DNA of 64,000 nucleotides from Rhizobium sp. Leaf262 (GTDB lineage: Bacteria > Pseudomonadota > Alphaproteobacteria > Rhizobiales > Rhizobiaceae): the NCBI RefSeq assembly GCF_001422245.1, contig NZ_LMMM01000012.1, forward strand, positions 124,613-188,612, given 5' to 3'. The notes under the pieces are model-generated. The model saw only the letters and a program-made list of their open reading frames with translations, did not search any database and was not told where the DNA came from. Below, in pieces: positions 42,560 through 63,815 of the stretch (the first letter of the stretch is position 1; every line of letters starts with the position of its first letter). Made by a program: the position numbers and the translations under genes.

Positions 42560-43525
42560 TCACCCAAACAGGCCAGCCAGGCTTCTGCGATGGTTATTGG
42601 CCATGGATACGACTTCAACGGCTAGATCGCGCTGCGTCTTGTAAGCTGTCAGCCTGGTCGATTCCTCTTCCATATTGGCGTCCACCAGACGGCTGACGCT
42701 CTTGTCCATGGAATCCTTCAACGAGCTGACGAACGTCGTCTGCTGGTCCATCCTGTTCGACATCGTACCAAGCGAGCTGCCCAATTGGTTGAGCTTCACG
42801 GACAATTGGCCGACCACATAAACCATGTCATCGAGCTCTTCGCGCGTCGTTGCATCCGATACGGAAATTTCCGTTCCCGATGCAGGATTCGAGGATTGGG
42901 CATCGAGCAGATAATATTCTCGTGGCGTCGAGCTTGGATCACCGTCACGCGCGCTGGCATCCATCCCTGCCGTCATCAAGCCCCGACTGGCGTCGTTGGT
43001 ATCGACCATCGTCGTTTCGGTCGTGTTTACACTGAGATATTCAAGCGATATCGCACCGGACACATTCTTGTGGAACGAGAATGGCACCGATTTTTCTGCA
43101 GGAAGCTGTTCGCTGGAATTGAACAACCAGTTGTCGCCGGAAAACGTCGCAGCTTGCGCAATTGTGTAAAGATTTTCCTTCAGCGCATCCATGGCGTTGT
43201 TGATCTGACCGCGATCAGCGCCCGTTTCGTAGGCCGTCGTCAGTTGCGTCATGATCTGATCGACGACATCAATCATCGACGAAACAGCCTCGTAGGCGGT
43301 ATCGGCTTTCGATGCGCCCAGATTGAGCGCGTCACCGACGCTGCTCAGCACGTTTCCGTCCGATTTCAGATTGGTAGCCGTCGACCAGTAGCCCGAATTA
43401 TCAGCAGCAGACGCGATCTTGTAACCTGACGTCACGCGCTCCTGCGTTTTCTGGAGGGTGTCGTTACTGAAGAGGAGCGTTTGAAGCGCACTCTGCACGC
43501 TGCCGGAGGAAATAATCTTGGTCAT
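42560..43525 (-). CDS. Flagellin, divergent fourth copy (FlaD position)
   Basis: A 321-aa flagellin. N-terminal D0/D1 helices (LQTLLFSNDTLQKTQERVTS, then GYKIASAADNSGYWSTATNL) and C-terminal D1/D0 (SVSRLVDANMEEESTRLTAY) are conserved, while the middle is distinct from the other three copies. It ends NNHRRSLAGLFG. The true start is the ATG at 43525; the frame is open to 43606. Its position next to the motB genes matches flaD in related agrobacteria, but the allele name is not certain. Confidence 0.92.
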   Translation of the reverse strand: MTKIISSGSVQSALQTLLFSNDTLQKTQERVTSGYKIASAADNSGYWSTATNLKSDGNVLSSVGDALNLGASKADTAYEAVSSMIDVVDQIMTQLTTAYETGADRGQINNAMDALKENLYTIAQAATFSGDNWLFNSSEQLPAEKSVPFSFHKNVSGAISLEYLSVNTTETTMVDTNDASRGLMTAGMDASARDGDPSSTPREYYLLDAQSSNPASGTEISVSDATTREELDDMVYVVGQLSVKLNQLGSSLGTMSNRMDQQTTFVSSLKDSMDKSVSRLVDANMEEESTRLTAYKTQRDLAVEVVSMANNHRRSLAGLFG

Positions 43526-43550
43526 GGTACCTACATCGGGCCGGGAGGAA

Positions 43551-43564
43551 CGGGGACATGCCAG
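43551..43564 (-). promoter_or_regulatory. Flagellin leader box, copy 4
   Basis: CTGGCATGTCCCCG on the minus strand matches the core GG[CA]ATGTCCC shared by all four flagellin genes and lies 26 nt upstream of the start. It is the most diverged copy. Confidence 0.45.
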
Positions 43565-43751
43565 AACTCTCTGGCGCAAAGCCGCACTCTCATCATGAAG
43601 AGGCACAGACGCGACATGACACGAAGCATCGCACGGCTTAGGGTTAACGAAATGCTAAACCCGTGACAAGTGTTATACCCGCCCAAGCTATGGCGAAACT
43701 TGCGCGATGCGTCTTTAAAGCCAAAAGCATCGTCTTTTTAAGCCCTTGCCA

Positions 43752-43793
43752 GAAAAAACGAAGAAGCCGCGCCTCCTTTTCAGAGGGCGCGGC
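43752..43793 (-). terminator. Terminator of the third flagellin gene
   Basis: On the minus strand a GCCGCGCC/GGCGCGGC stem, 22 nt after the stop, is followed by TTCTTCGTTTTTT. It is a strong Rho-independent terminator and makes the gene monocistronic. Confidence 0.85.
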
Positions 43794-43815
43794 CTGAATG
43801 GGCAGGATATCGATC

Positions 43816-44694
43816 TTACTGCTGGAAGAGCGACATGATGTTCTGTGCAGAGGAGTTCGCAATCGACAGGGACTGGATCGCAAGCTGCTGTTGTGTCTGC
43901 AAAGCAGAGAGCTTGGCCGATTCCTCTTCCATGTCGGCATCGACCAGACGGCTGACGCCCGATTCCATCGCGTCTGAAAGCTTGGCCGAGTAGCTATCCT
44001 GCAGATCGATACGAGTCTGAAGGGCACCGATAGCCGCAGCGGAGTCCGTAAGGTTGCTGAGCGCAAATTCGACGATGTCCATGAAAGCGTCGATGTCGCC
44101 TTGCGTCGACGCGCTTGTTAGCTGAACACTCATGACGCTGCCGAGAATTCCGCCTTCACCAATCCCATCGGCGATGGTCTCGAACATGGCATAGGAGGAA
44201 ATGTTGAACTTCGCAGTGGTGACGCTGACGCCACCGCTGGCTGTACGGATGAAGCCGTCAACAACGCTTGCCTGCGTGGCGTCGCCCAATACCATCCAGT
44301 TTTCGCCGGAGAAGGATGCGCCCTGTGCGATTGCGGAAAGCTGCTCCTGAAGCTTGCCGATTTCAAGCTGGATCTGAGCCTTGTCCGTGGACTGCTCGCT
44401 GGCGGTGACGAGCTTTGCCTTGATTTCGTCGACGGCACTGATCGCGCTTTCCATGGCGGCGTAGGCCGTATCGACCTTGGCGGCACCGACGCCCAGTGCG
44501 TCCGAAGCGGCATTCAGCGCCTTGTTGTCGGAATTCATGGTCGTGGAGATGGACCAGTAAGCGACGTTATCCTTTGCCTGACCTACCCGGTAACCGGACG
44601 AAACGCGATCTTGTGTGTTGGACAGGTCGGTGTTGATCGAGCGCAACGTCTGAAGGGCAGACATTGCAGAGGTGTTTGTCAAAATACTAGTCAT
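43816..44694 (-). CDS. Flagellin, third copy (FlaC position)
   Basis: A 292-aa short rhizobial flagellin. N-terminal MTSILTNTSAMSALQTLRSI and C-terminal SGVSRLVDADMEEESAKLSA with NSSAQNIMSLFQQ are nearly the same as in the second copy; differences cluster in the middle (about 140-215). It is a filament subunit exported by the type III apparatus. It has its own leader and terminator, so copy-specific expression is possible. Confidence 0.95.
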   Translation of the reverse strand: MTSILTNTSAMSALQTLRSINTDLSNTQDRVSSGYRVGQAKDNVAYWSISTTMNSDNKALNAASDALGVGAAKVDTAYAAMESAISAVDEIKAKLVTASEQSTDKAQIQLEIGKLQEQLSAIAQGASFSGENWMVLGDATQASVVDGFIRTASGGVSVTTAKFNISSYAMFETIADGIGEGGILGSVMSVQLTSASTQGDIDAFMDIVEFALSNLTDSAAAIGALQTRIDLQDSYSAKLSDAMESGVSRLVDADMEEESAKLSALQTQQQLAIQSLSIANSSAQNIMSLFQQ

Positions 44695-44726
44695 CTGTAG
44701 GTCGCCCCTTTGGCAAATTTTTTAAG

Positions 44727-44740
44727 AAGGGACATTCCGG
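44727..44740 (-). promoter_or_regulatory. Flagellin leader box, copy 3
   Basis: CCGGAATGTCCCTT on the minus strand is identical to the box before the second flagellin and lies 33 nt upstream of the start. Its CCCTT can pair with the AAGGG of the ribosome binding site. Confidence 0.6.
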
Positions 44741-44949
44741 TCCAAGCCGGGAAACGCAGCAGGCAGCTTCATGCTTCCCGATCGAAGTGACCGGTGCGCT
44801 GTTTCGATGACCACAGAAAACAGGTTTTTGGTTAACAAAGGTTTAATGGTAGGAGTTCTTTTACCTTGTTGAAGGAAAGATTAAACTCAAATGGAGCCGT
44901 TAATAAATACTAACTTATTGTTAAATATGAATATTTTAAAATTCTCACA

Positions 44950-44993
44950 AGTTAAAATTTTTTACGAAAAAAGCCGCGCTAGGGGCGCGGCTT
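44950..44993 (-). terminator. Terminator of the second flagellin gene
   Basis: On the minus strand an AAGCCGCGC/GCGCGGCTT stem with a 5-nt loop is followed by TTTTCGTAAAAAATTTT. It lies about 20 nt after the stop of the flagellin at 45015. Confidence 0.85.
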
Positions 44994-45014
44994 TTCTATT
45001 GAACGTGCCGATCA

Positions 45015-45896
45015 TTAGCCTCTGAAGAGGGTCATGATGTTCTGCGAGCTGGAATTCGCAATCGACAGCGACTGTACCGCCAGCTGCTGCTGCGTCTGCA
45101 GGGCCGAGAGGCGCGCCGATTCTTCTTCCATGTCCGCATCGACGAGACGACTTACGCCAGCTTCAATAGCGTCGCTGAGCTTGGAGGAATAATCGTCCTG
45201 CATGTCGATACGGGTGGACAATGCACCCAGAGCGGCAGCACCGATTGTCAGAGTGTCGAGAGCAGTTTCGACGATTGTCATGAACGCATCGATGTCACCC
45301 TGTGTGGCAGCGCTGTTCAACGCAATGGTCATGACGTCGGCCAGAATGCCGCCGCTGCCGACGCCGCCGGCGATAGAGTTGAACAGAGCGTAAGAGCCAG
45401 CGTTGAACGTCGCTGTCGTAACCTTGACGGAACCGTCCGAGTTGCGGATGAAACCATCGACGACGGTCGTCGAGGAACCCGTGTCACCCTGAATGGCCCA
45501 GTTTTCACCGTTGAACGAAGCGGCCTGACCGATAGCCGTCAGCTGCTCCTGCAGTTTGGTGATTTCGAGCTGAACCTGGTCCTTGTCAACGGAAGTTTCG
45601 CTGGCGGTGGTCAGCTTGGCCTTGATTTCGTTGACGACGTCGATGGCGCTGTCCATGGCGGCATAAGCCGTATCGACCTTGGCTGCGCCGACACCCAGAG
45701 CGTCTGTTGCAGCATTGAGTGCCTTGTTGTCGGAATTCATTGTCGTGGAAATCGACCAGTAGGCAACGTTATCAGCAGCTTTACCGACCTTTTCACCAGA
45801 CGACACGCGGTCCTGCGTCGTGGAAAGGTTTGAATTGATCGTGCGCAGAGTCTGCAGTGCAGACATAGCAGATGTGTTCGTAAGGATACTGGTCAT
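45015..45896 (-). CDS. Flagellin, second copy (FlaB position)
   Basis: A 293-aa flagellin. It shares MTSILTNTSAMSALQTLRTI at the N-terminus and GVSRLVDADMEEESARLSAL with NSSSQNIMTLFRG at the C-terminus. The central part (about 130-200) is close to the first copy, so copies 1 and 2 look like a recent duplication or gene-converted pair. It is monocistronic with its own terminator. Confidence 0.95.
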   Translation of the reverse strand: MTSILTNTSAMSALQTLRTINSNLSTTQDRVSSGEKVGKAADNVAYWSISTTMNSDNKALNAATDALGVGAAKVDTAYAAMDSAIDVVNEIKAKLTTASETSVDKDQVQLEITKLQEQLTAIGQAASFNGENWAIQGDTGSSTTVVDGFIRNSDGSVKVTTATFNAGSYALFNSIAGGVGSGGILADVMTIALNSAATQGDIDAFMTIVETALDTLTIGAAALGALSTRIDMQDDYSSKLSDAIEAGVSRLVDADMEEESARLSALQTQQQLAVQSLSIANSSSQNIMTLFRG

Positions 45897-45928
45897 AGTA
45901 TTGATTGCCCCTTTGGCAAGTACAATTG

Positions 45929-45942
45929 AAGGGACATTCCGG
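45929..45942 (-). promoter_or_regulatory. Flagellin leader box, copy 2
   Basis: CCGGAATGTCCCTT on the minus strand, 33 nt upstream of the start. The SD lies in a stem TTGCC-AAAGG-GGCAA at 45905-45919, and the box itself can pair with the AAGGG of the SD. Confidence 0.6.
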
Positions 45943-46104
45943 TTTTACCGGTAAACGACAATCAGCCTCATGCCTGCCGAGTAATATATTTACTTTTCGG
46001 CCGCCGTTTCGATAGACCGATCTAACATCATTAAGGTTAAGAACTTACAAATATTATATAAATAAATAGTTAATTTTAGATAATTTTTAGTAATACTTTG
46101 TTAA

Positions 46105-46142
46105 CGGATAAAACGCGAAAGGCCGGACCTTTCGGTCCGGCC
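46105..46142 (-). terminator. Terminator of the first flagellin gene
   Basis: GGCCGGACC-TTTC-GGTCCGGCC is a perfect 9-bp stem with a tetraloop, 25 nt after the stop; on the minus strand TTTCGCGTTTT follows. Confidence 0.85.
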
Positions 46143-46167
46143 AATTTTTTCGATACTGAAATTCGTA

Positions 46168-47043
46168 TTAGCGGAAGAGCGAGAGGATGCTTTGCGAGCT
46201 GGAGTTCGCAATCGACAGCGACTGTACTGCCAGCTGCTGCTGGGTCTGCAGGGCCGAAAGACGTGCAGATTCTTCTTCCATGTCGGCGTCAACCAGACGG
46301 CTTACGCCAGCATCCATAGCGTCACTCAGCTTGCTGGAATATTCGTCCTGAAGATCGATACGGGTCGAAAGAGCACCCAGAGCGGCTGCGCCCTTGGTAA
46401 GTTCGCCGAGAGCCGTTTCAACAGTCGACAAGTAACCATCAATGGCGCCCTGCGTGGACGTGTCGCTCAGTGCAATGGTCATGACCGCGGCCAGGAGGCC
46501 GCCGCTGCCAACGCCGCCGGCAATGGTTTCAAACATTGCGTAGGAGCCAGCGTTGAACGTCGCTGTCGTAACCTTGACGGTACCGTCCGAGTTGCGGATG
46601 AAACCATCGACAACAGTCGTCGAGGAGCCGCTATCCTGAATTGCCCAGTTTTCACCGTTGAACGAAGCGGCCTGACCGATAGCGGTCAGCTGCTCCTGGA
46701 GCTTTTTGATTTCAAGCTGAACCTGGTCCTTGTCAACGGAACTTTCGCTGGCGGTGGTCAGCTTGGCCTTGATTTCGTTGACGACGTCGATGGCGCTGTC
46801 CATGGCGGCATAAGCCGTATCGACCTTGGCTGCGCCGATTCCGAGCGCGTCCGTCGCTGCACCAAGCGCCTTGTTGTCGGACTTCATCGTGGTCGCGATG
46901 GACCAATATGCTGCACCGTCAGAGGCATCGGCGATTTTCAGACCGGAAGACACGCGATCCTGGGTGTTGCTTAGGTTCGAATTGATGCTGCGCAGTGTCT
47001 GGAGTGCATTGCTGGCAGACGAGTTGAAGTTGATGCTAGACAT
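46168..47043 (-). CDS. flaA: Flagellin, first copy (FlaA position)
   Basis: A 291-aa flagellin with a slightly different N-terminus (MSSINFNSSASNALQTLRSI) from the other two short copies and the same C-terminal block (GVSRLVDADMEEESARLSAL, NSSSQSILSLFR). It is the most upstream of the tandem flagellin genes and is divergent from the GT41 glycosyltransferase gene, a place where flaA, the main flagellin of agrobacteria, is expected. The name is inferred from position. Confidence 0.94.
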   Translation of the reverse strand: MSSINFNSSASNALQTLRSINSNLSNTQDRVSSGLKIADASDGAAYWSIATTMKSDNKALGAATDALGIGAAKVDTAYAAMDSAIDVVNEIKAKLTTASESSVDKDQVQLEIKKLQEQLTAIGQAASFNGENWAIQDSGSSTTVVDGFIRNSDGTVKVTTATFNAGSYAMFETIAGGVGSGGLLAAVMTIALSDTSTQGAIDGYLSTVETALGELTKGAAALGALSTRIDLQDEYSSKLSDAMDAGVSRLVDADMEEESARLSALQTQQQLAVQSLSIANSSSQSILSLFR

Positions 47044-47423: not shown

Positions 47424-49346
47424 ATGTTAAACGAAATCAGCTATGCCGCCGCTTCGAAGCACTTCAAGACCGGTCAGTACACGCAGGCTCTTCAAACCCT
47501 GAACAAGCTGATCGACACGAAGCGCGATGCGCGCACCTACGCTTTGCTCGCCAAAACCTGCATGCAGATCGGCATGCCGGAACAGGCAGCGACATCCTAT
47601 GAGCTGGCCTATCAGCAAAATGGCATAGATGCGGAAAGCTATCTCGTCGACAGTATCAAGCTCTATTACGATTGCGGGCAGAAGGATAAGGCACTCTCGC
47701 TGTCCAACAAGCTGATCCACCGTTTCCATAAATATCCCGATATCTGCTATATCGTGGGCACGATATTGCTGGAGCGCGGAGAGCCTCGAATTGCCAGGGC
47801 ACTGAAAAGCGTCCTGATGAAGAGCGACTCGATCGAGCACGTCAAGCTCGGTGCACGCATCGCCATCACCACTTGGGACCTTTTCGATCCGAAAGACATC
47901 GAGACGGCCCGCCTGCTTCTGGCCAAATTGCCGCGCCAGCAGGCCGTACGCCTGATGTATCTCGTCTTTTGCCGCGAGCACAGTAAGTTCGACGCCATCG
48001 AGAAGCATCAGCCGATCATTGATGAAGTGGTCGCTGGCGGCGAAACCCGCTTCGTTTCGCTGGATGGAACGTTCTTCAATCTCCATTGGAGCGGCGACGA
48101 GCACATTAACCAGCTTGCACGCAGCAACACGCCAGCCTTCAATCCGGAAATGAGCGTGACCCGTCGGCAGTTGCCCCATGAATGGGGTGAGAAGATACGG
48201 ATCGGCTACCTGTCGTCCGACCTTTTCGACAAGCATGCAACCATGAAGCTCATCCGGCGGGTGCTGGAGCTGCATGACCGTGATCGCTTCGAGGTCACGC
48301 TGTTTTGCCATTCGGCTCCCGACCTGCTGGAAACCAACGAGGCAGATCGCAGCCTGTGGGGTGACGTCGTAACCGTGCGCGAGATGAGCAACGAAAACGC
48401 ACTGGCTGAGATCAAGGCGCGCAACATCGACATCCTCGTCGATTTGAAGGGGCACACGGCAGGCAATCGCACCGCGATCCTCAATATGGGCGCCGCACCC
48501 ATTCAGGTCGCCTGGATCGGCTTTCCCGGCTCAACGGTCAATGTCGATCTCGACTATGTCATTGGCGACCATCACGTACTGCCGGATAGCTCCAAGCCGC
48601 ATTACTACGAGAAATTTGTCCGGCTGCCGGAAACATACCAGCCCAACGACCCCGTCAACCGCCCGCTGGCCAAACAAGTCAACCGCGCCGATCTCGGCCT
48701 GCCGGAAGATGCTTTCGTCTTTGCGTCCTTCAACGCCAACCGCAAGATCACACCTCAGGTAGCTGAACTCTGGGGCAATATCCTCAAGCGAGCACCCAAC
48801 AGCGTCATCTGGATCCTGCACAACAGCCAGGACAGCAGAACCAATATCCTGACCAAATTCCTGGCAATGGGGATTCCAGCAAAACGCGTTTTCTTCATGA
48901 AAAAGCTGGATTTCGAGCTTCACCTCAACCGTATCACGGCTGCCGATCTGGGACTCGACACCTTCCCCGTCAACGGCCACACCACGACATCGGAACAACT
49001 GTGGTCCGGCCTCCCCGTCTTGACGGTTAAGGGCACCAACTTCGCCTCGCGGGTCAGCGAAAGCCTGCTGCATGCCATCGACGTGCCGGAACTGATTGCC
49101 CAGGACGAAGCTGCATATGCCGATCAGGCTGTGGCTTACGCGCTCGACCCCACACCATTGAAGGAAATTCGCGCCCGTATCGATGCAAACCGGTTTACCA
49201 AGCCGCTCTTCGACGCGGAACGCTATTGCCGACACCTCGAAACTGCCTATGAGATGATGGTCGAGCGGGCGAAAGCAGGCGCTGAACCAGACCATCTCGA
49301 TGTCCCGGCCTTGCCAGCACGCAGCGGCCCCTTCGAAGTGCGATGA
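47424..49346 (+). CDS. GT41 (OGT/SPINDLY-like) glycosyltransferase next to the flagellin genes
   Basis: A 640-aa cytoplasmic protein. Residues about 1-130 are TPR-like (AAASKHFKTGQYTQALQTLN). The C-terminal half is an O-GlcNAc-transferase-type GT-B domain: KIRIGYLSSDLFDKHATMKL with the conserved His, APIQVAWIGFPGSTVNVDLD, FASFNANRKITPQVAELW with the catalytic-type Lys, and DTFPVNGHTTTSEQLWSGLP for nucleotide-sugar binding. It is divergent from the flagellin genes, so flagellin glycosylation is plausible but not shown. A hairpin follows the gene. Confidence 0.85.
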   Translation: MLNEISYAAASKHFKTGQYTQALQTLNKLIDTKRDARTYALLAKTCMQIGMPEQAATSYELAYQQNGIDAESYLVDSIKLYYDCGQKDKALSLSNKLIHRFHKYPDICYIVGTILLERGEPRIARALKSVLMKSDSIEHVKLGARIAITTWDLFDPKDIETARLLLAKLPRQQAVRLMYLVFCREHSKFDAIEKHQPIIDEVVAGGETRFVSLDGTFFNLHWSGDEHINQLARSNTPAFNPEMSVTRRQLPHEWGEKIRIGYLSSDLFDKHATMKLIRRVLELHDRDRFEVTLFCHSAPDLLETNEADRSLWGDVVTVREMSNENALAEIKARNIDILVDLKGHTAGNRTAILNMGAAPIQVAWIGFPGSTVNVDLDYVIGDHHVLPDSSKPHYYEKFVRLPETYQPNDPVNRPLAKQVNRADLGLPEDAFVFASFNANRKITPQVAELWGNILKRAPNSVIWILHNSQDSRTNILTKFLAMGIPAKRVFFMKKLDFELHLNRITAADLGLDTFPVNGHTTTSEQLWSGLPVLTVKGTNFASRVSESLLHAIDVPELIAQDEAAYADQAVAYALDPTPLKEIRARIDANRFTKPLFDAERYCRHLETAYEMMVERAKAGAEPDHLDVPALPARSGPFEVR

Positions 49347-51279: not shown

Positions 51280-52986
51280 TTATGCTGCTTTCTCGATTGC
51301 CCATTTGCGGAGGATTTTGGCGGCGCGTTCCTCGCTGATTTCCACCATCCGCGAGAGGCGGCGCTCCGGCCCTTCGCGAACCCGGCGATTGAAGTCGCCG
51401 CTGTCGCTGTCGCCCGAGAGGAGATCGTCGGTGCTGTCGAAGCCGAAGTCCGCACCGAAGCCATCCATGAGACCGCCGCCTGCGCCGGCACCACCCATGG
51501 CAGGCGAGAAGTCCGGCAGTTCCAGACCAGCCGCTTCCTGACCCACTTCCGCCATGGCCGCAGAGCCGCCGGAGAAGGAGCGGACCATCGGGCGAACACC
51601 CAGCCAAACCACGAGGAAGGCGACGACGACGAAGGCGAGCGAATTGATGAGGCCTGCCGAGTTGCGGCTGACGACTTCCATGAAGCCCGGTCCCGCAACC
51701 GGCTGGTCGAGTAGCTGGGTTTCCAGGAAGTCCATGGCGGTGATCGTGACGACGTCGCCGCGATTTGTCGAAATACCCGCCGCAGACGCAACGATCTTCT
51801 GCATTTCTGCAAGGTAAGCATCGACCTTGGCCTGGTCGGCAGGCTCGCCGATCATCTTGGCAAGGCGACCCTTGTTGACAACGACAGCAATCGAAATCTT
51901 GTCGACCGTATAGCCATTGCGAACCGTGGCCGTCGTCTTGGAGTTGATTTCGTAGTTGGTCTGCTCTTCCTTTTTGGCGGATTCGTCAGACGACTTCGGA
52001 CCACCGCCGCCACCCTGTGGAGCAGCCTGCGGTACGTTCTGTTCAACGGTTGCAGCCGTATCCGGCGTCGTTTCCTGTGACTTCTGGTCTTCCTTGGTGG
52101 TGCGAACGGAACGCTCGACGCGCGATTCAGGATCGAAGACTGTTTCCTGGATTTGCTGGCTATCCGTATTCAGCTCGGCTGTGACGGTAGAGCGGAAGTT
52201 ATCCATGCCCAGAAAAGGCGCAAGCGCCTTGTCGATCTTGGTTTCGAGTTCCTGTTGAACGTTCTGGGAAAGCGTCAGCGAGCGATTCAGGGCTCCGTTG
52301 CCGACATCGTCGCCGGAGGCCAGAAGCTGGCCAGTGGAATCGAGCAGCGTTACATCATCGACCTCAAGGCCGGGAACGGCCGAGGCAACGAGGTGGCGAA
52401 TGGACGAAGCGGCCTTGCGGCCTGCGGTGGCGCTCGCGCGAATCATGACGGAGGCCGTTGGCTTCTGCTCGCCACGGCGAAAATTGCCGACGTCCGGCAT
52501 GACGATGTGGACGCGTGCTGCAGCGATGCCATCGATCTGCTGGATCGAGCGACCAATTTCCCCTTCAAGCGCGCGGACGCGGGTAACTTCCTGCATGAAC
52601 GAGGTGAGACCGAGTGAACCGACATTGTCGAAGAGCTCATAACCGGCATTGGCGCTATCAGGTAGACCGCGTTCAGCCAGCAAAAGACGAGCCTTGCTCG
52701 TCATGCCGACTGGCACTTGAAGGCTCGTTCCATCGGCTCCGACTTGAAAATCGACGTTGGATTCGGCCAGTGCGATGCTGATCTTGTTCAGATCCATCGT
52801 TTCCAGGCCGACATAAAGTGTTTCGTAAGCAGGTTTGTTCACATAGAGCGCTGCGGCAAGAATGATCGCCATGGACAAAACGCCCACGCCACCCAGCACC
52901 AAAAGCCGCGTCTGCCCAAGGGCCGCGAAATTCTTTAAAACCTGAGGGAATTGATTTAACAGATTCATTCTGTCCCGCACCGTCAT
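51280..52986 (-). CDS. fliF: FliF: flagellar MS-ring protein
   Basis: A 568-aa MS-ring subunit. The first membrane helix is near residues 30-50 (LLVLGGVGVLSMAIILAAAL). Ring-building motifs follow (RAEL-like LLLAERGLPDSANAGYELFD, AARVHIVMPDVGNF). A Gly/Gln/Glu-rich loop is near 310-350, the second helix near 450 (LINSLAFVVVAFLVVWLGVR), and the C-terminal FliG-binding tail is EERAAKILRKWAIEKAA. The ATG at 52968 (MNLLNQFPQ) is an alternative start. The che operon usually found upstream in rhizobia is absent here; the giant repeat gene is upstream instead. Confidence 0.96.
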   Translation of the reverse strand: MTVRDRMNLLNQFPQVLKNFAALGQTRLLVLGGVGVLSMAIILAAALYVNKPAYETLYVGLETMDLNKISIALAESNVDFQVGADGTSLQVPVGMTSKARLLLAERGLPDSANAGYELFDNVGSLGLTSFMQEVTRVRALEGEIGRSIQQIDGIAAARVHIVMPDVGNFRRGEQKPTASVMIRASATAGRKAASSIRHLVASAVPGLEVDDVTLLDSTGQLLASGDDVGNGALNRSLTLSQNVQQELETKIDKALAPFLGMDNFRSTVTAELNTDSQQIQETVFDPESRVERSVRTTKEDQKSQETTPDTAATVEQNVPQAAPQGGGGGPKSSDESAKKEEQTNYEINSKTTATVRNGYTVDKISIAVVVNKGRLAKMIGEPADQAKVDAYLAEMQKIVASAAGISTNRGDVVTITAMDFLETQLLDQPVAGPGFMEVVSRNSAGLINSLAFVVVAFLVVWLGVRPMVRSFSGGSAAMAEVGQEAAGLELPDFSPAMGGAGAGGGLMDGFGADFGFDSTDDLLSGDSDSGDFNRRVREGPERRLSRMVEISEERAAKILRKWAIEKAA

Positions 52987-53091: not shown

Positions 53092-56000
53092 TCATGCCGC
53101 CATATAGACGGAAATGATCGCCGAGACCTGTTCAGGTTTGAGCGAACCCATATGAGTGTTCAATAGCGTATCGATCTGTGCGCTGGACAGACTGACCAGC
53201 GTATCGGTCGACAAACCTGCCACGCCCGACGAACTGAAGGCCGCGATGTCAGCAGTGGAGAACTTCGAAATGTTTTCCTTCGAAAAAGCTGCGACCTGAG
53301 ACGAGGTCAGTGCTCCAACCTGTGCCGGGGTCAAGGCTTCACTCTGACCCGTCGTCAACCCAGCAATGACGCTTGTCGCGAGACCCGAAACCGCGCTGGT
53401 GCTCAACGCTACCACATCTGCACTGGTAAAGAGCGCGATGTCTTCCGTTCCCAGTGCCGCTGCCTGGATCGCGTTGAACGCATTGATCTGCGTCGTGGAC
53501 AGGGCATCCACCTGCGCGGTGCTCAGTGTAACAATCTGATTATAACCGAGTGCGCCCACCTGTCCCGGAGTCAGCACGCTCATTTCTTCCGTGGTCAAGC
53601 GGGCAATGATGGCCGTCGACAGGCCACGGATGGACGAGGACGCGATTGCGGCAATATCCGCTGTCGAGAAGGTCGACATGCCCTCGGTCGTCAACCCCGA
53701 AAGGCCATCGGCGCTGAGGGCCGCGATCTGGGCGGTGGTGAAGCTTTCGAGCTGATCCTTTCTCAACACGGCAACCTGCTTGCTTGTCAGGCCCGAAATG
53801 CCAGCCGTTCCCATAGCGGCCAGTTCCGTGGGCGAAAGAGCCGCGATAAAGTCTGTCGGCAAGCCTGCGATGGCTGCAGTACCGATGGCTGAGATTTGAG
53901 CCGCTGACAGCGTGTCCAGTTCCTCTGCCGTCAGGCCGGAGACCGCAGCGGAGGTCAAAGCGCCCATCTGTCCGGTCGTCAGAACATGCAATTGTTCGAG
54001 ACTGAGAGCGCCCACCTGAGTGCTTGAAAGCCCGGTGATGCCAAGCATGCTGATCGCCGCAATCTGCCCTGTCGACAGGGCGGCGATATCACCCGTATCG
54101 AGCGCCGCGATCTGCTGCGACGTGAACGCTGCCACCTGTGTCGTGGAAAGCACGCTGATCTGGTCGACTGTCAGAGCAGATACCTGAGCGGTCGAGAGAC
54201 CGGAAATTCCAAGCGCACTCAAGGCATGTATCGTCTCGGTGGCGAGCGCCGCCAGTGTCGAGGTCGAAATGCCGACGATGGCCCCGGCGCTGATCGCCGC
54301 AAGGTCGGCAGTCGAGAACGTCTTGAGATCGTCAAGGCCGAGCGCTGCGATCTGCTTGGAGCCCAGCGCCGCCACCTGATCGCTGGTGAAGGCTTCCACC
54401 TGATCGGTGCTGAGCGCCGATATCTGGCTGGCGGTCAGTCCCGAAATGCCCGAGGTACTCAAGATGGCGATCCGTGCCGTGGACAGAGATGCGATGACTG
54501 CGGTGGAAAGCCCCTGGATGACGTGAGCCGGAAGAGCCGCCAGATCATCGGTCGAGAAGACGTCGATGTCGTCTTCTCCAAAAGCTGCCAGCTGGGTTGA
54601 ACTCAGCGCCGCCACCTGCGTCGGGGTTAGAGATTCGACCTGATCGGTTGAGAGAACCGCCACCTGCCCGGTAGACAGTCCGGCAATCGCTGCAGAATTC
54701 ATCGACATCATCTGTGCGGTAGATAGCACGGCAACACCCACCGTTCCCAACGCTGCGATCTGCTTGGAGCCGAGTGCGGAGACCTGCGCTGTGGTCAGCG
54801 CCTCCAACTGCGCGGTCTTCAACGCCGCAATCTGGGCAGTTGTCAGGCCGGAAATACTGGCCGTACCGAGAACGGCGACGCGTTCCGTCGGAAGGCCTGC
54901 AATGATATCCGTCGAAAGACCCTGAAGCGCGCTCGATGGCAAGGCCGCGAGATCGGCGGTGGAAAAGACACCGAGATCATCGGTGCCCATCGCGCTGATC
55001 TGAAGCGAGGTCAGCACCGCAACCTGCGTGGACGTGAGCGCTTCTATCTGCACGGTGGACATGACAGCGATCTGGTCAGTCGAAAGACCAGCAATGCCAG
55101 CCGTAGCCAGGGCGGCGATCTGAGCAGTTGTAAGAGCCCTTGCCCCGTTTGTTCCCAAAGCGGCAACCTGTTTTGCGGCGAGCGATGCGATCTGGGCTGT
55201 TGTCAGCGCGGCAAGCTGCTCCGATGTCATGGCCGCAAGCTGCGTTGTCGTAAGGCCGGAGACGCTGGCTGTTCCCAGAATGGCGATCCTCTCGGGCGAC
55301 AGACCGGCGAGCGTGGCGGAAGAAAGCCCCTGAATGGCGCTCGATGTCAGTGCGGCGAGTTCTGCGGTCGTAAAGGTCCCGAGATCGTCAACGCCGAGAG
55401 CACCCATCTGGATTGATGAAAGGGCGCCGACCTGCGTGGAGTTGAACGCTTCGACCTGGCTTGTCGTCAGCGACGCGACCTGCTCTGCAGACAGCCCCGG
55501 AATGCCCGCCGTGCTGAGCGCGGCAATCTGCGCCGTCGACAGCAACGAGACACCCGCCGTCCCCAAAGCTCCGATCTGTTTGGAACCCAGGGCCGAAACC
55601 TGACCCGTCGTTAGCACGCCGATCTGGGCTGACGTCAGCGCCGCAATCTGGGCCGTCGACAGTCCGCTCACACCCGCGCTCGACAGGTTAGCAATAACGC
55701 TACCGGGCAAGGCAGCCAGAATCTGGGTCGTCAATCCCGCAACCGCTGCGCTGGATAGCGCCATGACGTCGCGGTTGGAGAATACGGCCAGATCGTCGGA
55801 ACCGAGGGCGCTGACCTGTGCGGAACTGAGAACGGCAACCTGCGCCGTCGTCAGCGCCTCGGTCTGCGCCGTGCTCAGTATCGCGATCTGGCTTATAGAA
55901 AGACCGGCGATACCATCGGTGCCCAGTGCGGCAATCTGCTGGGTAGTGAGAGCCTTGGCACCGAGTGTCCCCAGCGCTGCCACCTGCCTGGAGGTCAGGC

Positions 56001-59000
56001 GAGAGACCTGCGCGGTCGACAATTCGTCGACCTGATCGGCGGTCAGGGCTGCGACCTGGGAAGCAGAAAGACCAGAAATCGCCGAGGTGCTGAGAGATGT
56101 AATCCGCGAAGGCAAAAGGTTCTTGATCGTGTCGGCGGACAGACCGGCGATGGCGGTCGAACTCAGCGCAGCAATTGCCGATGTCGACATGGCGTTCAGG
56201 CTGGCTGCTCCCAACGCAGAAACCTGCTGTGAACTCAGCGCTGCTACCTGTTTCGTGGACAATGCGAACAACTGGCCCGTCGACAAGGCCGCGATCTGAC
56301 TGGTCGACAGGCTGGCAATAGCATCCGTGCTCCAGTAGGAAATCTGGGTCGTGGTCAAGGCGGCAATCGTTGCCGTCGGCAATGAACTGAGGACGCTGGT
56401 ACTGACAGAGCCGATTTCTTCATCCGAAAAGGTTGCAATCCCCTCTGCCGAGATGGCTGAGAACTGCGCAAGGGTCAGAGCCTGTACCTGTACTTTCGTC
56501 AGGGCCTTGGCCTGATCGGTACCGAGCACCGATAGCTGCCCTGTCGTCAAACCGGAAATTCCACTCGTGCTCAATGCGGTGATCTGGGCAGTCGTCAAAG
56601 CCTTGACATCCTGCGTGCGCAACACCGAGACCTGCTCGGCGACCAGAGCTGCCACCTGCTTGGTTGTCAACGCCGCGACCTGAGTCGGCGTCAGCGACGC
56701 GATCTGCGCGGTCGTCATCGCCGGGATACTCGTTTCGCTCAGCATTGCGACCTTGTCGGCCGAGAGCAATGATAGTTGCGAAGGTAAAATGCCGGCAATC
56801 GCTGCGGAACCAATGGCCCCGAGCTCTTTGTCCGTGAAGGTCGAGATATCATCGGCCCCAAATCCTTCGAACTGCTCTGCCGTCAGCTTGGCAATCTGGA
56901 CGTTGGTCAACGCCGTTGCCTGCTCCGTGGACAGAGCGGCAATCTGCTTGCTGGAAAGACCGGTCACGCCCGCCGTGCTGATGGCTGCGATCTGCGGCCC
57001 GGTCAACGCGGCGATCTGGGCGTTGCTCATCGCCGATATCTGAGTGGAGGTGAAGGCGGTGATCTGGGAGGGTTTCAAACCGGCCAACTGCGCAGGCGTA
57101 AGCGCCGCCAGTTGCACATCAGTCAGATTCGTGACTGCATTTTCGCGCAGCGCCGCAATCTTGTCCGCGGATAATGACGCGAGAATTGTCGGACTGAGTA
57201 CCGCGATCTGCGTCGATGTCAGTGCGCTGATTTGGTTCAATGATAGTGCATTGAGCTGGGTCGAGGTCATGACGTCGACCTGGTCAGTCGTCAGCCCTCC
57301 AATGGCCGCCGGTGTGAGCCCCGGTATTTGGGCCGTGGTCAATGCTGCCAAGACGGCAGTGCTGAGCCCCGCAATGCCCCGGCTCGTTAGTGCCGCAACA
57401 TCCTTGGACGAAAAGGTCGCGATATCGTCAACATCGAGGCCTACAGTCTGTGTCGACTTGAGTGCTGCAAGCTGCCGCTCCGTCAAAGCATCGACCTGTT
57501 TTGTCGACAACGCTCCGATCTGTGCCGACGTCAGACCACCAATCGCGCCTGTGCTTAAAGCCGCGATCTCAAGATCGGTCAGGGCGGAGATGATATCGGA
57601 GGATAGGCCGGATGCGCCCGAGGCACTCAGCGCCTGGACCCCGGCAATTTTCATCGCTGCAATGTCTTCCACTTGGAATCCGGCGACCTGAGCAGATGTC
57701 AGGGAAGCGATCTGTGCCGTCAGCAACGCCGCGATCTGTTGGGTGGTAAGATCGGATATCTGGTCGGCATCGAGGCCACCTAACGCCTTGGTCGTCAATG
57801 CAGCGACCTGACTGGTTGTCAGAGCAGCTATCCTATCAGAGGCAAGAGCGGCCACCTGCGTAGAGGCCAGCGCTTTCACTTGCGCCGTCGAGAGTGCTGC
57901 CACTTGCGTAGGGGTCAGGGCAGAAATCTGACCTGTCGTAAGCTTTGAGACGGAATTCGTGCTGAGTGCCGCCACTTGCGCTGCTGTCATCGATGCGATG
58001 GCTTCTGTCGAAAGACCTGAAATCGCTTTTGTGCTGAACGCACCAATAGCCGTATTTTTCAATGCCGCAATGCCGTCGGCTCCCAGAACACCGAGTTGCT
58101 CAGAATTAAGAACAGAGGCCTGTGCTGCGGAAATAGAACCAAGCTGACGAACGGTGAGTGCGTCGACCTGCATCGTGGTCAAGCCTGCAACTGCCGATGG
58201 GCTAAGGGCCGCAATCTGGAAGGGCTCGAGTGTTTTCAGGACATCGGTACTCAGTCCCTGGATAGCCTTGGAGGTTATGGCGGCCATATCTTCCGAAGAG
58301 AATTGTGCCATGGCATTAACGCTCAGGACGGACAGTTGCGACGACGTCAACGCCTTGACCTGCTGGGGCGTGAATGAGCCGATCTTGAGAGGTGTAAAGG
58401 CTTGGATTTGCGCGGTCGACAAACCCGCAATGGCGCCCGTGCTGAGCGACGGGATTTGCTCCAAGGTCAACTTGCCCAGATACTCCGTCGACAACGACTT
58501 GATCTGCGCCGATTTGATCACCGAGATCTGTTTCGTCGTCAAGGCCGCCAATAGGTCCGCAGTCAAAGCGCCGAATTGGTCAGAGGAAAGTGCCGCAAAC
58601 GCCATTGTGCTTAACGCCGCGACCTGATCTTTCGTGAGAGCTGCCACCGCTTCGGTGCTCAGCCCAGCGACTCCTTTGTTGGATATGGCTGCGATATCTG
58701 CGGTCGAAAATTTCTTGATACCTTCGACGTTCAGAGCGGCGATCTGCGCCGAGCTGAGAACCTTCACCTGCGCTGAGGTGAGCGCCTCGACCAAAGCCGG
58801 CGTCAGCGAACCGATCTGCTCAGTGGTCAACTTGGAAATCGCAGCGGTTGACAGTGCCGCAATCTGCTCGGGCGTCAACTCCGAGATCAGGTCAGTACTC
58901 AAGCCGGAGATTGCTTTGCCCGACAACGAAACGAGCGCCGAAGACGGCAGAGCCTGGAAATCTTCTGCCGTCAGTACCGCAACCTGCGTCGAGCTCAGGG

Positions 59001-60267
59001 ATGCGATTTGCGCTGAAGTCAACGCACCAAGTTGGCTTGCACTCAAGGCATCGATCTGTTCGACAGTCAACTTGGCAAATGCCCCGGCGCTGATCGAAGC
59101 GACCTGCGCTTCACTCAGCGACGCCACCACACCGGGCGTCAATCCAGCAGCCGTCGCGCTGGTAATCGCGGCGATATCCGCCGTCGAGAACGTCGCGATG
59201 TCCTCGGCATCCAAAACCGCGATCTGAGTCGCGTTCAGGGCCTTGACCTGCGCGGGGGTCAGAGCTTCGATCTGCGCGGTCGATAGCACATCGATCTGGT
59301 CTGTTGTCAGCCCGGCGATGGCTTTCGTTCCCAAAGCAGCGATTTGCGCCTCAGACAGCACGGCGATATTGGTGGTGGCGATCACTTCTATCTGAGCCGA
59401 TTTAAGAGCGGCAACCTGCTTGGTCGTCAAACCGGACACTTGATTGGTCGACAAAGCCGCGACCTGCGCCGTGGTCAGACTGGCGATCGCAGCCGTGCTG
59501 AGGCCCGCGATACCGGATGAGGAGAGGTCGGCAATGTAATCGGCACCGAGAGCGGCGATCTGATTGGCTTTCAGGGACGCGATCTGAACGGAGGTGAACG
59601 CACCTACCTGCCATGCACTCAACGCGGTAATCTGGTCCGTCGTCAGTCTGCCAATCGCACTGGTGCTGATGGCACCCAGTTGATCGTCCGACATCGCGGT
59701 CAAGGCATCGACAGTCATGCCGGATATGGCGTTGGCACTAATGGCCGCCACCTGTTCGGTAGAGAGAAACTGAACTGCAGCAGAGGCTATTCCCGCAATG
59801 GCGCTGGCCGAAATAGCCGCCATATCAGCGCTGGAAAATGTCGCCAGTTCATCAAAGTCTAGCGCTGCGATTTGGCTGGAATTCATCGCGGCAATTTGCG
59901 CCGGCGTCAGCGCTTCCGTCTGGTCGAGGTCGAGTGCCTCGACCTGCGATGCCGTCAATGCCGAGACTTGTGTCGTACTCAGGCTAGAAATCGCGAGCTT
60001 GTCCAGCAAGGCGATGTGGTCGAGCGTCAGGCCGACAATTGCATTGGCAGAGATGCCGACACGTTGCTTTGTCGTCATGGCCGCGAAATCTTCATTCTCC
60101 AGCGCGGATATCTGTTGGGACGAAAAGGCGCCGATCTGTCTGGTCGAAAGTGCCGCGATCTGCTCTGTCGACAGCGCTTCCACATCATCTGTCGTCCAGC
60201 TCGAAATCGTCGCCGTCGACAGTTTCGATATTTGTGCAACGGGGATACTGGGTACGATCGACGTCAT
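53092..60267 (-). CDS. Giant octapeptide-repeat protein (297 tandem octads)
   Basis: A 2391-aa protein. After a 13-residue leader (MTSIVPSIPVAQI) it consists of 297 consecutive octapeptides and a final Ala-Ala; I followed every unit and found no register break. The consensus is x-A-L-S-T-x-Q-[IV]: hydrophobic at positions 3 and 8, Ser/Thr at 4-5 (Pro often at 5), Gln or Asp at 7. Landmark units of the form x-x-F-S-T-x-D-I recur at spacings made of 10 and 7 octads. No Cys, signal peptide, membrane helix or LPXTG-like anchor is seen. The Ser-Thr-Pro-x-Gln pattern suits helix capping, but a beta-solenoid is equally possible. Similar uncharacterised repeats occur in other alphaproteobacteria as far as I know. 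Function unknown; surface or exported fibre is a guess. Confidence 0.9.
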   Translation of the reverse strand: MTSIVPSIPVAQISKLSTATISSWTTDDVEALSTEQIAALSTRQIGAFSSQQISALENEDFAAMTTKQRVGISANAIVGLTLDHIALLDKLAISSLSTTQVSALTASQVEALDLDQTEALTPAQIAAMNSSQIAALDFDELATFSSADMAAISASAIAGIASAAVQFLSTEQVAAISANAISGMTVDALTAMSDDQLGAISTSAIGRLTTDQITALSAWQVGAFTSVQIASLKANQIAALGADYIADLSSSGIAGLSTAAIASLTTAQVAALSTNQVSGLTTKQVAALKSAQIEVIATTNIAVLSEAQIAALGTKAIAGLTTDQIDVLSTAQIEALTPAQVKALNATQIAVLDAEDIATFSTADIAAITSATAAGLTPGVVASLSEAQVASISAGAFAKLTVEQIDALSASQLGALTSAQIASLSSTQVAVLTAEDFQALPSSALVSLSGKAISGLSTDLISELTPEQIAALSTAAISKLTTEQIGSLTPALVEALTSAQVKVLSSAQIAALNVEGIKKFSTADIAAISNKGVAGLSTEAVAALTKDQVAALSTMAFAALSSDQFGALTADLLAALTTKQISVIKSAQIKSLSTEYLGKLTLEQIPSLSTGAIAGLSTAQIQAFTPLKIGSFTPQQVKALTSSQLSVLSVNAMAQFSSEDMAAITSKAIQGLSTDVLKTLEPFQIAALSPSAVAGLTTMQVDALTVRQLGSISAAQASVLNSEQLGVLGADGIAALKNTAIGAFSTKAISGLSTEAIASMTAAQVAALSTNSVSKLTTGQISALTPTQVAALSTAQVKALASTQVAALASDRIAALTTSQVAALTTKALGGLDADQISDLTTQQIAALLTAQIASLTSAQVAGFQVEDIAAMKIAGVQALSASGASGLSSDIISALTDLEIAALSTGAIGGLTSAQIGALSTKQVDALTERQLAALKSTQTVGLDVDDIATFSSKDVAALTSRGIAGLSTAVLAALTTAQIPGLTPAAIGGLTTDQVDVMTSTQLNALSLNQISALTSTQIAVLSPTILASLSADKIAALRENAVTNLTDVQLAALTPAQLAGLKPSQITAFTSTQISAMSNAQIAALTGPQIAAISTAGVTGLSSKQIAALSTEQATALTNVQIAKLTAEQFEGFGADDISTFTDKELGAIGSAAIAGILPSQLSLLSADKVAMLSETSIPAMTTAQIASLTPTQVAALTTKQVAALVAEQVSVLRTQDVKALTTAQITALSTSGISGLTTGQLSVLGTDQAKALTKVQVQALTLAQFSAISAEGIATFSDEEIGSVSTSVLSSLPTATIAALTTTQISYWSTDAIASLSTSQIAALSTGQLFALSTKQVAALSSQQVSALGAASLNAMSTSAIAALSSTAIAGLSADTIKNLLPSRITSLSTSAISGLSASQVAALTADQVDELSTAQVSRLTSRQVAALGTLGAKALTTQQIAALGTDGIAGLSISQIAILSTAQTEALTTAQVAVLSSAQVSALGSDDLAVFSNRDVMALSSAAVAGLTTQILAALPGSVIANLSSAGVSGLSTAQIAALTSAQIGVLTTGQVSALGSKQIGALGTAGVSLLSTAQIAALSTAGIPGLSAEQVASLTTSQVEAFNSTQVGALSSIQMGALGVDDLGTFTTAELAALTSSAIQGLSSATLAGLSPERIAILGTASVSGLTTTQLAAMTSEQLAALTTAQIASLAAKQVAALGTNGARALTTAQIAALATAGIAGLSTDQIAVMSTVQIEALTSTQVAVLTSLQISAMGTDDLGVFSTADLAALPSSALQGLSTDIIAGLPTERVAVLGTASISGLTTAQIAALKTAQLEALTTAQVSALGSKQIAALGTVGVAVLSTAQMMSMNSAAIAGLSTGQVAVLSTDQVESLTPTQVAALSSTQLAAFGEDDIDVFSTDDLAALPAHVIQGLSTAVIASLSTARIAILSTSGISGLTASQISALSTDQVEAFTSDQVAALGSKQIAALGLDDLKTFSTADLAAISAGAIVGISTSTLAALATETIHALSALGISGLSTAQVSALTVDQISVLSTTQVAAFTSQQIAALDTGDIAALSTGQIAAISMLGITGLSSTQVGALSLEQLHVLTTGQMGALTSAAVSGLTAEELDTLSAAQISAIGTAAIAGLPTDFIAALSPTELAAMGTAGISGLTSKQVAVLRKDQLESFTTAQIAALSADGLSGLTTEGMSTFSTADIAAIASSSIRGLSTAIIARLTTEEMSVLTPGQVGALGYNQIVTLSTAQVDALSTTQINAFNAIQAAALGTEDIALFTSADVVALSTSAVSGLATSVIAGLTTGQSEALTPAQVGALTSSQVAAFSKENISKFSTADIAAFSSSGVAGLSTDTLVSLSSAQIDTLLNTHMGSLKPEQVSAIISVYMAA

Positions 60268-60424: not shown

Positions 60425-60463
60425 GCACAAACGCAAACCGCCGCACGAATGTCGCGCGGCGGT
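60425..60463 (-). terminator. Probable terminator after glf
   Basis: ACCGCCGC and GCGGCGGT form an 8-bp stem about 28 nt after the glf stop; the minus strand continues TTTGCGTTTGTG. It would separate glf from the giant repeat gene, leaving about 155 nt for the latter's own promoter. Confidence 0.6.
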
Positions 60464-60491: not shown

Positions 60492-61706
<1,215 letters not shown>

Positions 61707-61760: not shown

Positions 61761-63815
61761 TCAAGCCGTAGCCGCGGCTTCGGGCGTCCACAACCGTGCA
61801 TCATGCGGAATGTGTGAGAAGGCCTGCCACTCGCGCATCTTCTCAAGGTAACGCGCGCGATAGGTCGCTTCATCAACGAATTCGAGATTTTCCAGAACGA
61901 GTTCCGTACCGATTTCGTAGTAAACGTCCATGTTACGGAAGTCCGGAACCGGCGTTTCTCCGCGCTCGGCCTCTCCCTGCATTTGCCAATACAGTTCTTC
62001 GAGACGGCGTGCCAGCCCCGGAATGTCACGAAGCGCACTCGTTTCGCGGTTGGCCTGCAGCTTGTCCCTGACGGCTTTCAGCGCAGCCGGGTTTTTAGCA
62101 TAGGCGATGGCCTTGGCGACGTAATCCTGTGGGCCTTCGCAGATCAGTTCCGGCACGCCCGCCGCGGCAACGACGCTCGAGCAGAAGCGCGACGCAAAGC
62201 TCTTGCCAGGGAAGGTCAGCACGGGAAGACCGACCGTCAGCGAATCGGCTGCCGTCGAATGTGCGCCATAGGGGAACGTGTCGAGGAAGAGGTCGGCAAC
62301 GCCAATACGTGCCAAATGATGGGCATTGGCCACCTTGGGCGCAAAGATGACCCGTTCGGCGTCGATACCGGCCTCCACGAACATGGAGAGCAGACGCTGA
62401 TCGGCCTTTTCGTTGCCGCTGAGCATCCACAGAATGCTGCCCGGCGTTTCCGTCAAAATGGCCTTCCATTGTTCGAACGTGCCCGCCGTGATCTTCTGCA
62501 TGCCGTTAAAGCACGCAAACACGAAGGCATTCTCCGGCAGACCGGCTTTTTCGCGCGATGGCTTTTCGGCGATGAAGCGCTTGCGGTCGATAGGCTGGTT
62601 GCAGGCGATCCGCAGAACCTTTTCGGAGTAATAGATTTCGCTCGAAGGCGGCACGATCTGCGCATCCGCGATCATGTACTGGTGGAATGGCGAGCCCATG
62701 GAGCCAGGATAGCCGCAGAAATTGACGATGACCGGTGCGGGACGGTAGCCGAAAATCTTGGTCCGTGCATGCTTGGTATAGCCATTGACGTCAATCAGGA
62801 TATCGATCTCATCGCTGGCGATCTGGCGGGCCGCTGCCTCGTCTGTGAGCGTGCCAATGTCGTGCCAGACATCGACCGCTGCCTTCATGCGGGTCTGCGT
62901 CGCATCGTTGCTAACCGGGTCACCGCAATAGTAGGCGTGGATTTCGACGCTCGCTTTGTCATGCAGTTCCAACACTTCGCGCAACGCGAACCCGACCGCG
63001 TGGTCGCGCAAGTCGGACGAGACGTAGCCCACGCGCAGGCGCTGGCCCGTGCCGGTCTTCTGCTTGACCTTGTTGCGCGGGAAATTGCGCAGATCGATGC
63101 GACCGACAAAACCCTTGTTGTATTCGTATGCGCGAGCCAGCTGGAACATGGGGTCGTCAGAATAGCATCCCAGTGTCAGCGGCGACAGCGAATCAATCAT
63201 CTGGCGCTCGGTGACATGGCTAGATGGGATAATGATTGGCCACTTGCATTGACGCTGACGGATTGCGCTCCAATGCTGTCCGGTCTCGGTCTTTTCAGGG
63301 CGCAGCTCCATGGCATCCCACAGAACGGTCTCGGCTTCTTCCAGAAGTCCAGCATTTTCCATCACGCGACCGATATGCTGCATCGCCATGACGCGGTAGG
63401 ACAGGCGGTCAGGTGTCGTCTCGGCGGTGCTCTCGACGAAGCTTCTCCACTGCTGGATGGCCTGCGGGGAAGACCCGCTGTCTTCAAAGGCGCGGCCCAG
63501 GTTGATATGGGCAGGCCCGAACATGGGATCGATCTTCAGTGCTGCGCGCATGGCGTTGATGGAGCCCGCGATATCATTCAGCTGTCGCAGCATGACGGAA
63601 TAGTTGAAATAGACCATCTGCGCGCCGGGATGTGTTTCGTTATACGCGAGCCAGGTCTTATAAAGCTCGCCCGCCTCGCTCTTGCGGCCTTCCGCGTTGA
63701 AGTTTTCGGCGAATGTGAACAGGTCGCCAAGCGCCAGACGTTGCGTTCTGGCCAGTTCCAGAAGGTTTGGAAAAAGCTGGCTGGAAAAACCACTGTTTAC
63801 GACACTGTTCATCAA
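61761..63815 (-). CDS. GT41 (OGT/SPINDLY-like) TPR glycosyltransferase, second copy
   Basis: A 684-aa cytoplasmic protein. TPR-like helices span about residues 30-190 (AALKIDPMFGPAHINLGRAF). The GT-B domain carries LRVGYVSSDLRDHAVGFALR with the conserved His, PVIVNFCGYPGSMGSPFHQY, FACFNGMQKITAGTFEQW with the catalytic-type Lys, and DTFPYGAHSTAADSLTVGLP. Unlike the 47424 copy it has a C-terminal extension of about 60 residues. It is upstream of glf and the giant repeat gene on the same strand, separated from glf by about 110 nt. The acceptor is unknown. Confidence 0.85.
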   Translation of the reverse strand: MMNSVVNSGFSSQLFPNLLELARTQRLALGDLFTFAENFNAEGRKSEAGELYKTWLAYNETHPGAQMVYFNYSVMLRQLNDIAGSINAMRAALKIDPMFGPAHINLGRAFEDSGSSPQAIQQWRSFVESTAETTPDRLSYRVMAMQHIGRVMENAGLLEEAETVLWDAMELRPEKTETGQHWSAIRQRQCKWPIIIPSSHVTERQMIDSLSPLTLGCYSDDPMFQLARAYEYNKGFVGRIDLRNFPRNKVKQKTGTGQRLRVGYVSSDLRDHAVGFALREVLELHDKASVEIHAYYCGDPVSNDATQTRMKAAVDVWHDIGTLTDEAAARQIASDEIDILIDVNGYTKHARTKIFGYRPAPVIVNFCGYPGSMGSPFHQYMIADAQIVPPSSEIYYSEKVLRIACNQPIDRKRFIAEKPSREKAGLPENAFVFACFNGMQKITAGTFEQWKAILTETPGSILWMLSGNEKADQRLLSMFVEAGIDAERVIFAPKVANAHHLARIGVADLFLDTFPYGAHSTAADSLTVGLPVLTFPGKSFASRFCSSVVAAAGVPELICEGPQDYVAKAIAYAKNPAALKAVRDKLQANRETSALRDIPGLARRLEELYWQMQGEAERGETPVPDFRNMDVYYEIGTELVLENLEFVDEATYRARYLEKMREWQAFSHIPHDARLWTPEAAATA

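Follow-up and report, generated by a model that had tools for sequence, protein, structure and literature searches.

A giant octad-repeat gene of Rhizobium and its linked GT41 glycosyltransferase: a candidate exported glycoprotein system

The whole stretch of Rhizobium sp. Leaf262 DNA analysed here (64,000 nucleotides, hereafter the window) carries on its minus strand an octad-repeat gene assigned to the PF20080 ALTTAQ repeat proteins (53092..60267), a single ATG frame with no inner stops whose product of 2391 amino acids (236.8 kDa, pI 4.2) contains no Cys. The protein opens with a 13-residue leader (60229..60267, minus strand), which has the MTSI-type start common to most relatives and in which no Sec-type signal was seen on inspection by eye, runs through 297 consecutive octads (53101..60228, minus strand) and closes with Ala-Ala; the count given by the sequence-only reading, 13 + 2376 + 2 = 2391 residues with 297 x 8 in the middle, is exact in coordinates, frame and arithmetic. 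At its end lies a C-terminal cap (53095..53184, minus strand), predicted as two longer helices and kept in orthologues. On the same strand, 105 bp downstream of the array, is the flagellar MS-ring gene fliF (51280..52986), and near the locus are four flagellin genes (42560-47043, minus strand) adjoined by a GT41 gene on the plus strand, here GT41a (47424-49346). On the other side of the array stand a UDP-galactopyranose mutase gene (GLF; 60492..61673, minus strand) and, two genes upstream of the array, GT41b (61761..63815, minus strand), a TPR-type glycosyltransferase resembling OGT and SPINDLY that belongs to an array-linked clade and matches the profile Glyco_transf_41 at 241.7 bits (E 1.5e-71). 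A terminator-like hairpin after GLF (60437-60463) was set aside: its scan counted 10 sites, and shuffled sequence gave 6.8 (sd 2.5). As a separate observation, excerpts of a paper on the Agrobacterium phage Atu_ph04 report that it encodes a UDP-galactopyranose mutase, the enzyme type of GLF (PMC6630229).

The octads of the window array are distinct in 293 of 297 cases, with Leu at position 3 in 226/297, Gln at position 7 in 152/297 and Ile or Val at position 8 in 221/297, and the self-identity of the protein is 0.31 at a lag of eight residues and 0.05-0.09 at lags 1-7. Against five orthologues the dN/dS of the array is 0.11-0.16, a rough figure since dS (1.2-2.2) is near saturation, and by the same method fliF gives 0.02-0.03 against two of the five orthologue genomes. 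These comparisons indicate that the array frame is under purifying selection, and they bear out the earlier view of an old, selected array whose 297 octads are unbroken in the window.

With 1122 bits over 92 stretches, against a curated cut-off of 26.4, the Pfam profile PF20080 (ALTTAQ_rpt) places the array by its sequence in a named family, whose entry describes the same repeat and names the repeat only, without partners, export or function. Other Pfam matches (CAAP1, Sigma70_r4_2, LRR_EndoS, Phage_TAC_7, DUF4351 and HTH_26) had no singly significant stretch and were discarded as repeat artefacts, as were the LRR chains among the PDB sequence matches; NCBIfam returned two weak rows only, and a search of phage records for a phage origin of the array gave no match. 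The best PDB sequence match is HeliScrew4 (9zem; E 3e-17, the next chain standing at 0.00018), a chain of 120 residues with the same octad pattern that was probably designed, judging from its name and regularity, and which is short, unlike the 2391-residue window array; the likeness is one of sequence match, and 9zem is absent from the fold-search rows shown for the C-terminal model. That search gave no specific relative (Foldseek reached E 1e-4 at best, its TM-scores being 0.1-0.3, and the highest Z was 7.7). AlphaFold2 models of the last and the first 400 residues (50 octads each) have a mean pLDDT of 94.6 at both ends, a value that may be inflated for repeats with shallow alignments, and a pTM of 0.83 and 0.80 from alignments of 21 and 22 sequences, respectively; each holds 47 helices of at least four residues and no strand, and two longer helices stand at the C-terminus. 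The window array is accordingly modelled, and so predicted, as helical at both ends with about one short helix per octad, which upholds one of the two folds that the sequence-only reading had offered and leaves its beta-solenoid alternative without a strand in either model. Some plasmid records call array relatives 'ICE nucleation protein' or 'heme utilization protein' (others 'hypothetical'), and ice-nucleation proteins also show an eight-residue period, which is what could be said for a beta-solenoid of the ice-nucleation or heme-utilization kind; however, the models are confidently all-helical, no ice-nucleation or haemagglutinin Pfam match to the window array is listed up to E 1, and Tyr makes up only 0.2% of array residues, and I reject this explanation as extremely improbable on the helical models and Pfam profiles.

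The array had also been described as not a recent DNA expansion, and its age stands, but it did grow, long ago, by duplication of DNA blocks. Within the window array octad identity is highest at lag 17, counted in octads (0.394; the next-best lags are 61, 27, 34, 44 and 10), the highest identity at any lag in 200 shuffles of unit order being 0.338, and the signal is strongest in units 166-231 (0.52-0.58). Because this peak exceeds the shuffles and because paralogue lengths step by 136 residues, that is 17 octads (734, 870 and 1006; 1279 and 1415), I infer that 17-octad blocks were duplicated, and the sequences indicate that at the window locus the copying is long past. Array length is now very stable inside the window's branch, with no gaps across 2391 aa at 68% identity to L037 and one, three and one gaps in L046, L036 and L055, respectively; complete family members elsewhere have from about 90 to about 420 units, and the count of 297 is particular to this branch. 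The idea that selection holds the eight-residue register survives in part: no unit is broken in the window, but among the 15 orthologues at this locus (window included) only the window, L037, L046 and L049 are unbroken, and the other 11 have one to four register breaks each, of 1 to 14 residues. Paralogous arrays in L048 (907-3876), L052 (16571-19540), L039 (14284-17616) and L064 (8664-11075) repeat regularly every 133 aa, a length made up of 16 octads and one five-residue unit, and this period is sometimes divided into 10 + 5 octads. Arrays in L145 (6866-14157, a Pseudomonas asturiensis plasmid), L053 (7484-12675) and L080 (8329-11280) are annotated or read as several frames, which reflects either decay or sequencing error in repeats.

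Searching proteomes with an octad profile, as had been suggested from the sequence, was done with PF20080 and found the family in the genus, order and class sets: in 28/61 genomes, comprising 27/37 of the genus and 1/24 others of the order, and in 6/289 genomes of the class (own genome included). Among named genomes a single-protein query matched nothing and an alignment query recovered array loci, 34 of them, some sharing genomes with the genus set; they include Agrobacterium rubi, rosae, bohemicum, larrymoorei and cavarae, together with Rhizobium, Sinorhizobium, Shinella, Ciceribacter, Allorhizobium and Magnetospirillum. Matches were also found in 57/72,556 plasmid records, Cereibacter and Pseudomonas among them. 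The genome of the window itself has a second array gene (L056, 870 aa), and pieces of a third, with broken frames and undetermined bases, lie at two contig ends (L057, G000:C18:1-9000, and L058, G000:C2:1-9000), probably an assembly gap inside a repeat.

It is the neighbours of these arrays that offer the main functional clue. The sequence-only reading had found no domain of known function flanking the array, and indeed none is fused to it, but the genes for GT41 and GLF are conserved beside it: GLF adjoins the array in 23/34 named loci, and a GT41b-like gene lies in the fetched flanks of 25/34, the other nine being L075, L076, L081, L090, L093, L097, L098, L101 and L103, the last being a contig of 9.3 kb. 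In 26/37 genomes of the genus there are 28 genes that reach 60% identity with GT41b, and every one of the 28 lies within ~2 kb of an array, a conserved order of enzyme beside putative acceptor; no genus genome has GT41b without an array, and 10 have neither. G046, of the same order, has a GT41b at 43% identity adjoining its array, and three PF20080-free genomes have GT41s at 33-39% (L111-L113) with no array near. Read from the side of the arrays, no GT41 matched at E <= 1e-3 in any of 18 further genus array loci, most of which hold paralogues with a different gene neighbourhood, and G018, where five array matches were found (the best at E 3.3e-7), lacks GT41. The linkage is one-sided: in the genus GT41b always lies by an array, and not vice versa.

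In the class as a whole GT41 is not rare, since it is found at E <= 1e-20 in 87/289 genomes, and yet when GT41b was the query, with up to four candidates per genome scored, just four genes exceeded 580 bits (own genome, G263, G235 and G331; the next reached 360), all of them within ~6 kb of an array. In G263 a further array has no GT41 near and a further GT41 no array, the GT41s of G100 all lie far from its array, and G201, whose array is short and doubtful, has no GT41. In a tree of 37 GT41s, 30 array-linked rows fall on one side of a branch with SH-aLRT 97, the seven others being few and three of them long branches, and GT41a sits on a branch apart from the array-linked clade; the array-linked enzymes form two subgroups, and both genomes of the genus Niveispirillum carry a member of each subgroup next to the array. 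A search with the Pseudomonas enzyme puts two array-linked genes first in the class (474 and 471 bits), followed by 423 and 410, a small gap between array-linked and other GT41s. What is new here is that a clade of OGT/SPINDLY-like GT41 enzymes goes with the arrays, and only with them in the searches made. One could still suppose that GT41 and GLF serve another acceptor, such as flagellin or a polysaccharide, and that the array is a passenger in a surface-sugar region, given that surface-sugar genes are common near some arrays, that GT41a adjoins the flagellins and may glycosylate them, and that GT41b could glycosylate something other than the array; this supposition strikes me as quite improbable, since the array-linked clade is distinct from GT41a, turned up only near arrays when genus and class were searched, and keeps its linkage on small plasmid modules.

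The array-GT41 linkage persists on plasmids and without flagellar genes, and some plasmids add an exporter. A glycosyltransferase or GT41 occurs in 8/11 plasmid regions read and a type I exporter in 4/11, the latter count including Niveispirillum (an unannotated record) through L132. In Niveispirillum G235 the order is epimerase, GT41, GT41, HlyD, ABC exporter and array, and G331 of the same genus has the same layout, its HlyD and ABC being read from layout and not from profile; plasmid pA of Cereibacter sphaeroides 2.4.1 carries HlyD, a peptidase-domain ABC protein, GT41 and array, and two Pseudomonas plasmids carry TolC, HlyD, ABC, array and GT41. On two Rhizobium plasmids the gene directly upstream of the array encodes a glycosyltransferase (in the first a confirmed GT41) and no exporter is visible, R. 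rhizoryzae has two array genes with GT41 4.6 kb from the nearer one, and the plasmid array regions of Thioclava, Shinella and Polaromonas have neither GT41 nor type I exporter. No type I exporter was recognised at the window locus, and none is linked to arrays in the window's genus, Agrobacterium-type loci included; the Niveispirillum ABC protein, used as a query for an exporter tracking the arrays genus-wide, led to none, matches to ABC exporters being present in 61/61 genomes. As side observations, the genome of the window encodes an ABC exporter 52% identical to the array-linked Niveispirillum one (L160, G000:C17, 5793-9355), near which are sugar genes and a large surface-like protein with no array seen in the stretch, and a match of this strength is absent from the other 36 genus genomes; and a second, different Niveispirillum array (L138, 3274-13666) directly follows a large gene with protein-kinase, GAF and histidine-kinase-type ATPase domains.

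The exporter genes bear on whether the array protein leaves the cell at all. It might instead be a cytoplasmic scaffold or a storage-like giant, its GT41 linkage signifying regulation by glycosylation and not export, as the lack of a visible signal peptide, the many arrays with no exporter near and the cytoplasmic action of GT41 enzymes (PMC7591256, PMC10507012, as excerpted) would allow. I nevertheless think it rather improbable, given the type I genes adjoining arrays in Niveispirillum, Cereibacter and Pseudomonas and the near absence of Cys, which occurs once in 13,511 octads and fits an exported protein, if weakly on its own.

A flagellar route has its own attractions. The array protein could be a flagellum-associated component (a sheath, a filament decoration or a length gauge) that uses flagellar export and is glycosylated like flagellin, and this would suit fliF immediately downstream on the same strand with flagellins near, fliF in the fetched flanks of 13/34 named loci, the MTSI start common to array proteins and 2/4 window flagellins, the stable array length in the window's branch, and a Rhodovastum plasmid on which flagellar export genes, array and GT41 stand together. 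But fliF is absent from the flanks of 21/34 named loci, plasmid modules of only glycosyltransferase and array exist, other lineages have type I genes instead, family lengths vary from ~90 to 420 units, and a common start of four residues says little; the flagellar neighbourhood is real but local context, and a flagellum-associated role is, to my mind, unlikely. The Rhodovastum atsumiense plasmid region (L144, 205-20424) has flagellar export and rod genes adjoining array and GT41, and no flagellin is annotated there.

The reading that I favour, and find reasonably probable on the strength of gene context, is that the array is a giant alpha-solenoid to which a dedicated GT41 adds O-linked sugars in the cytoplasm before export. 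Each octad of this Cys-free solenoid is predicted to form one short helix, and the Ser/Thr at octad positions 4-5 (at least one in 89% of octads) would offer hundreds of hydroxyls; since the array has 593 Ser+Thr and 6 N-linked sequons in 2391 aa, Ser/Thr is the likely acceptor and not Asn. Ser/Thr enrichment failed as a mark of glycosylation, the frequency at positions 4-5 being equal in arrays with and without a linked GT41, and because of this equality these residues may serve helix capping only. GT41b, two genes upstream, would be the enzyme that O-glycosylates the array in the cytoplasm, as its old and one-sided gene linkage suggests, and in many Rhizobiaceae the neighbouring UDP-galactopyranose mutase might, more tentatively, supply galactofuranose to the glycan. 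The glycoprotein would then be exported without a Sec signal, presumably through a type I system at loci with flanking type I genes, to go by the linkage in Niveispirillum, Cereibacter and Pseudomonas, and in the window's genus by candidate routes that are type I or flagellar; it might end as a long surface or extracellular fibre for attachment or matrix. More tentatively still, one may picture a portable system of two genes, carried by alpha- and gammaproteobacteria on chromosomes or plasmids, where a dedicated GT41 clade coats the Ser/Thr, by the hundred, of a giant 'helical screw' while it is still in the cytoplasm and not yet exported, yielding a mucin-like rod whose length changes in 17-octad blocks and which bears galactofuranose in Rhizobiaceae; this broader picture is possible, and I would not yet bet on it.

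The repeat family PF20080 was already known, and what is new is its pairing with a GT41 clade, joined in some lineages by type I secretion; searches of open-licence PubMed Central, preprints aside, found no paper on ALTTAQ or HeliScrew and none on arrays with GT41 (the latter with partly over-broad terms), and the excerpts of a survey of Rhizobium leguminosarum secretion (PMC2275737) contain neither 'octapeptide' nor 'residue repeat'. With this pairing a repeat that had lacked an explanation becomes a glycoprotein system open to test, and if the linkage means what it seems to, the arrays would be exported giant glycoproteins with a transferase of their own. They would then be a new type of scaffold on which bacterial OGT-like enzymes act, their many repeats would suit studies of the specificity of these enzymes, and plant-associated Rhizobiaceae would have in them a surface factor amenable to testing.

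Known systems offer both parallels and differences. The HMW1C gene is paired with the gene for the HMW1 adhesin. HMW1C-like GT41 enzymes are soluble and modify adhesins on Asn (PMC10507012, in excerpt), and the likeness to array and GT41b lies in a GT41-family enzyme gene beside the gene of a putative acceptor; however, the likely acceptor here is Ser/Thr on an alpha-helical repeat, an HMW1C-type acceptor would carry many N-linked sequons and the array has 6 in 2391 aa, and the array-linked export, where present, is type I, unlike that of the HMW1 system. FlmG of Caulobacter, which O-glycosylates flagellins in the cytoplasm (PMC7591256, in excerpt), resembles the proposed array system in that an alphaproteobacterium adds O-linked sugar, inside the cytoplasm, to a filament protein that is exported, and differs in attaching pseudaminic acid to flagellin, whereas here an octad array is found with a UDP-galactopyranose mutase. 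Finally, SPINDLY and O-GlcNAc transferase combine PF13844 with TPR, as do several of the array-linked enzymes, but the eukaryotic enzymes are described as having many nucleocytoplasmic targets, whereas here one clade tracks one repeat family.
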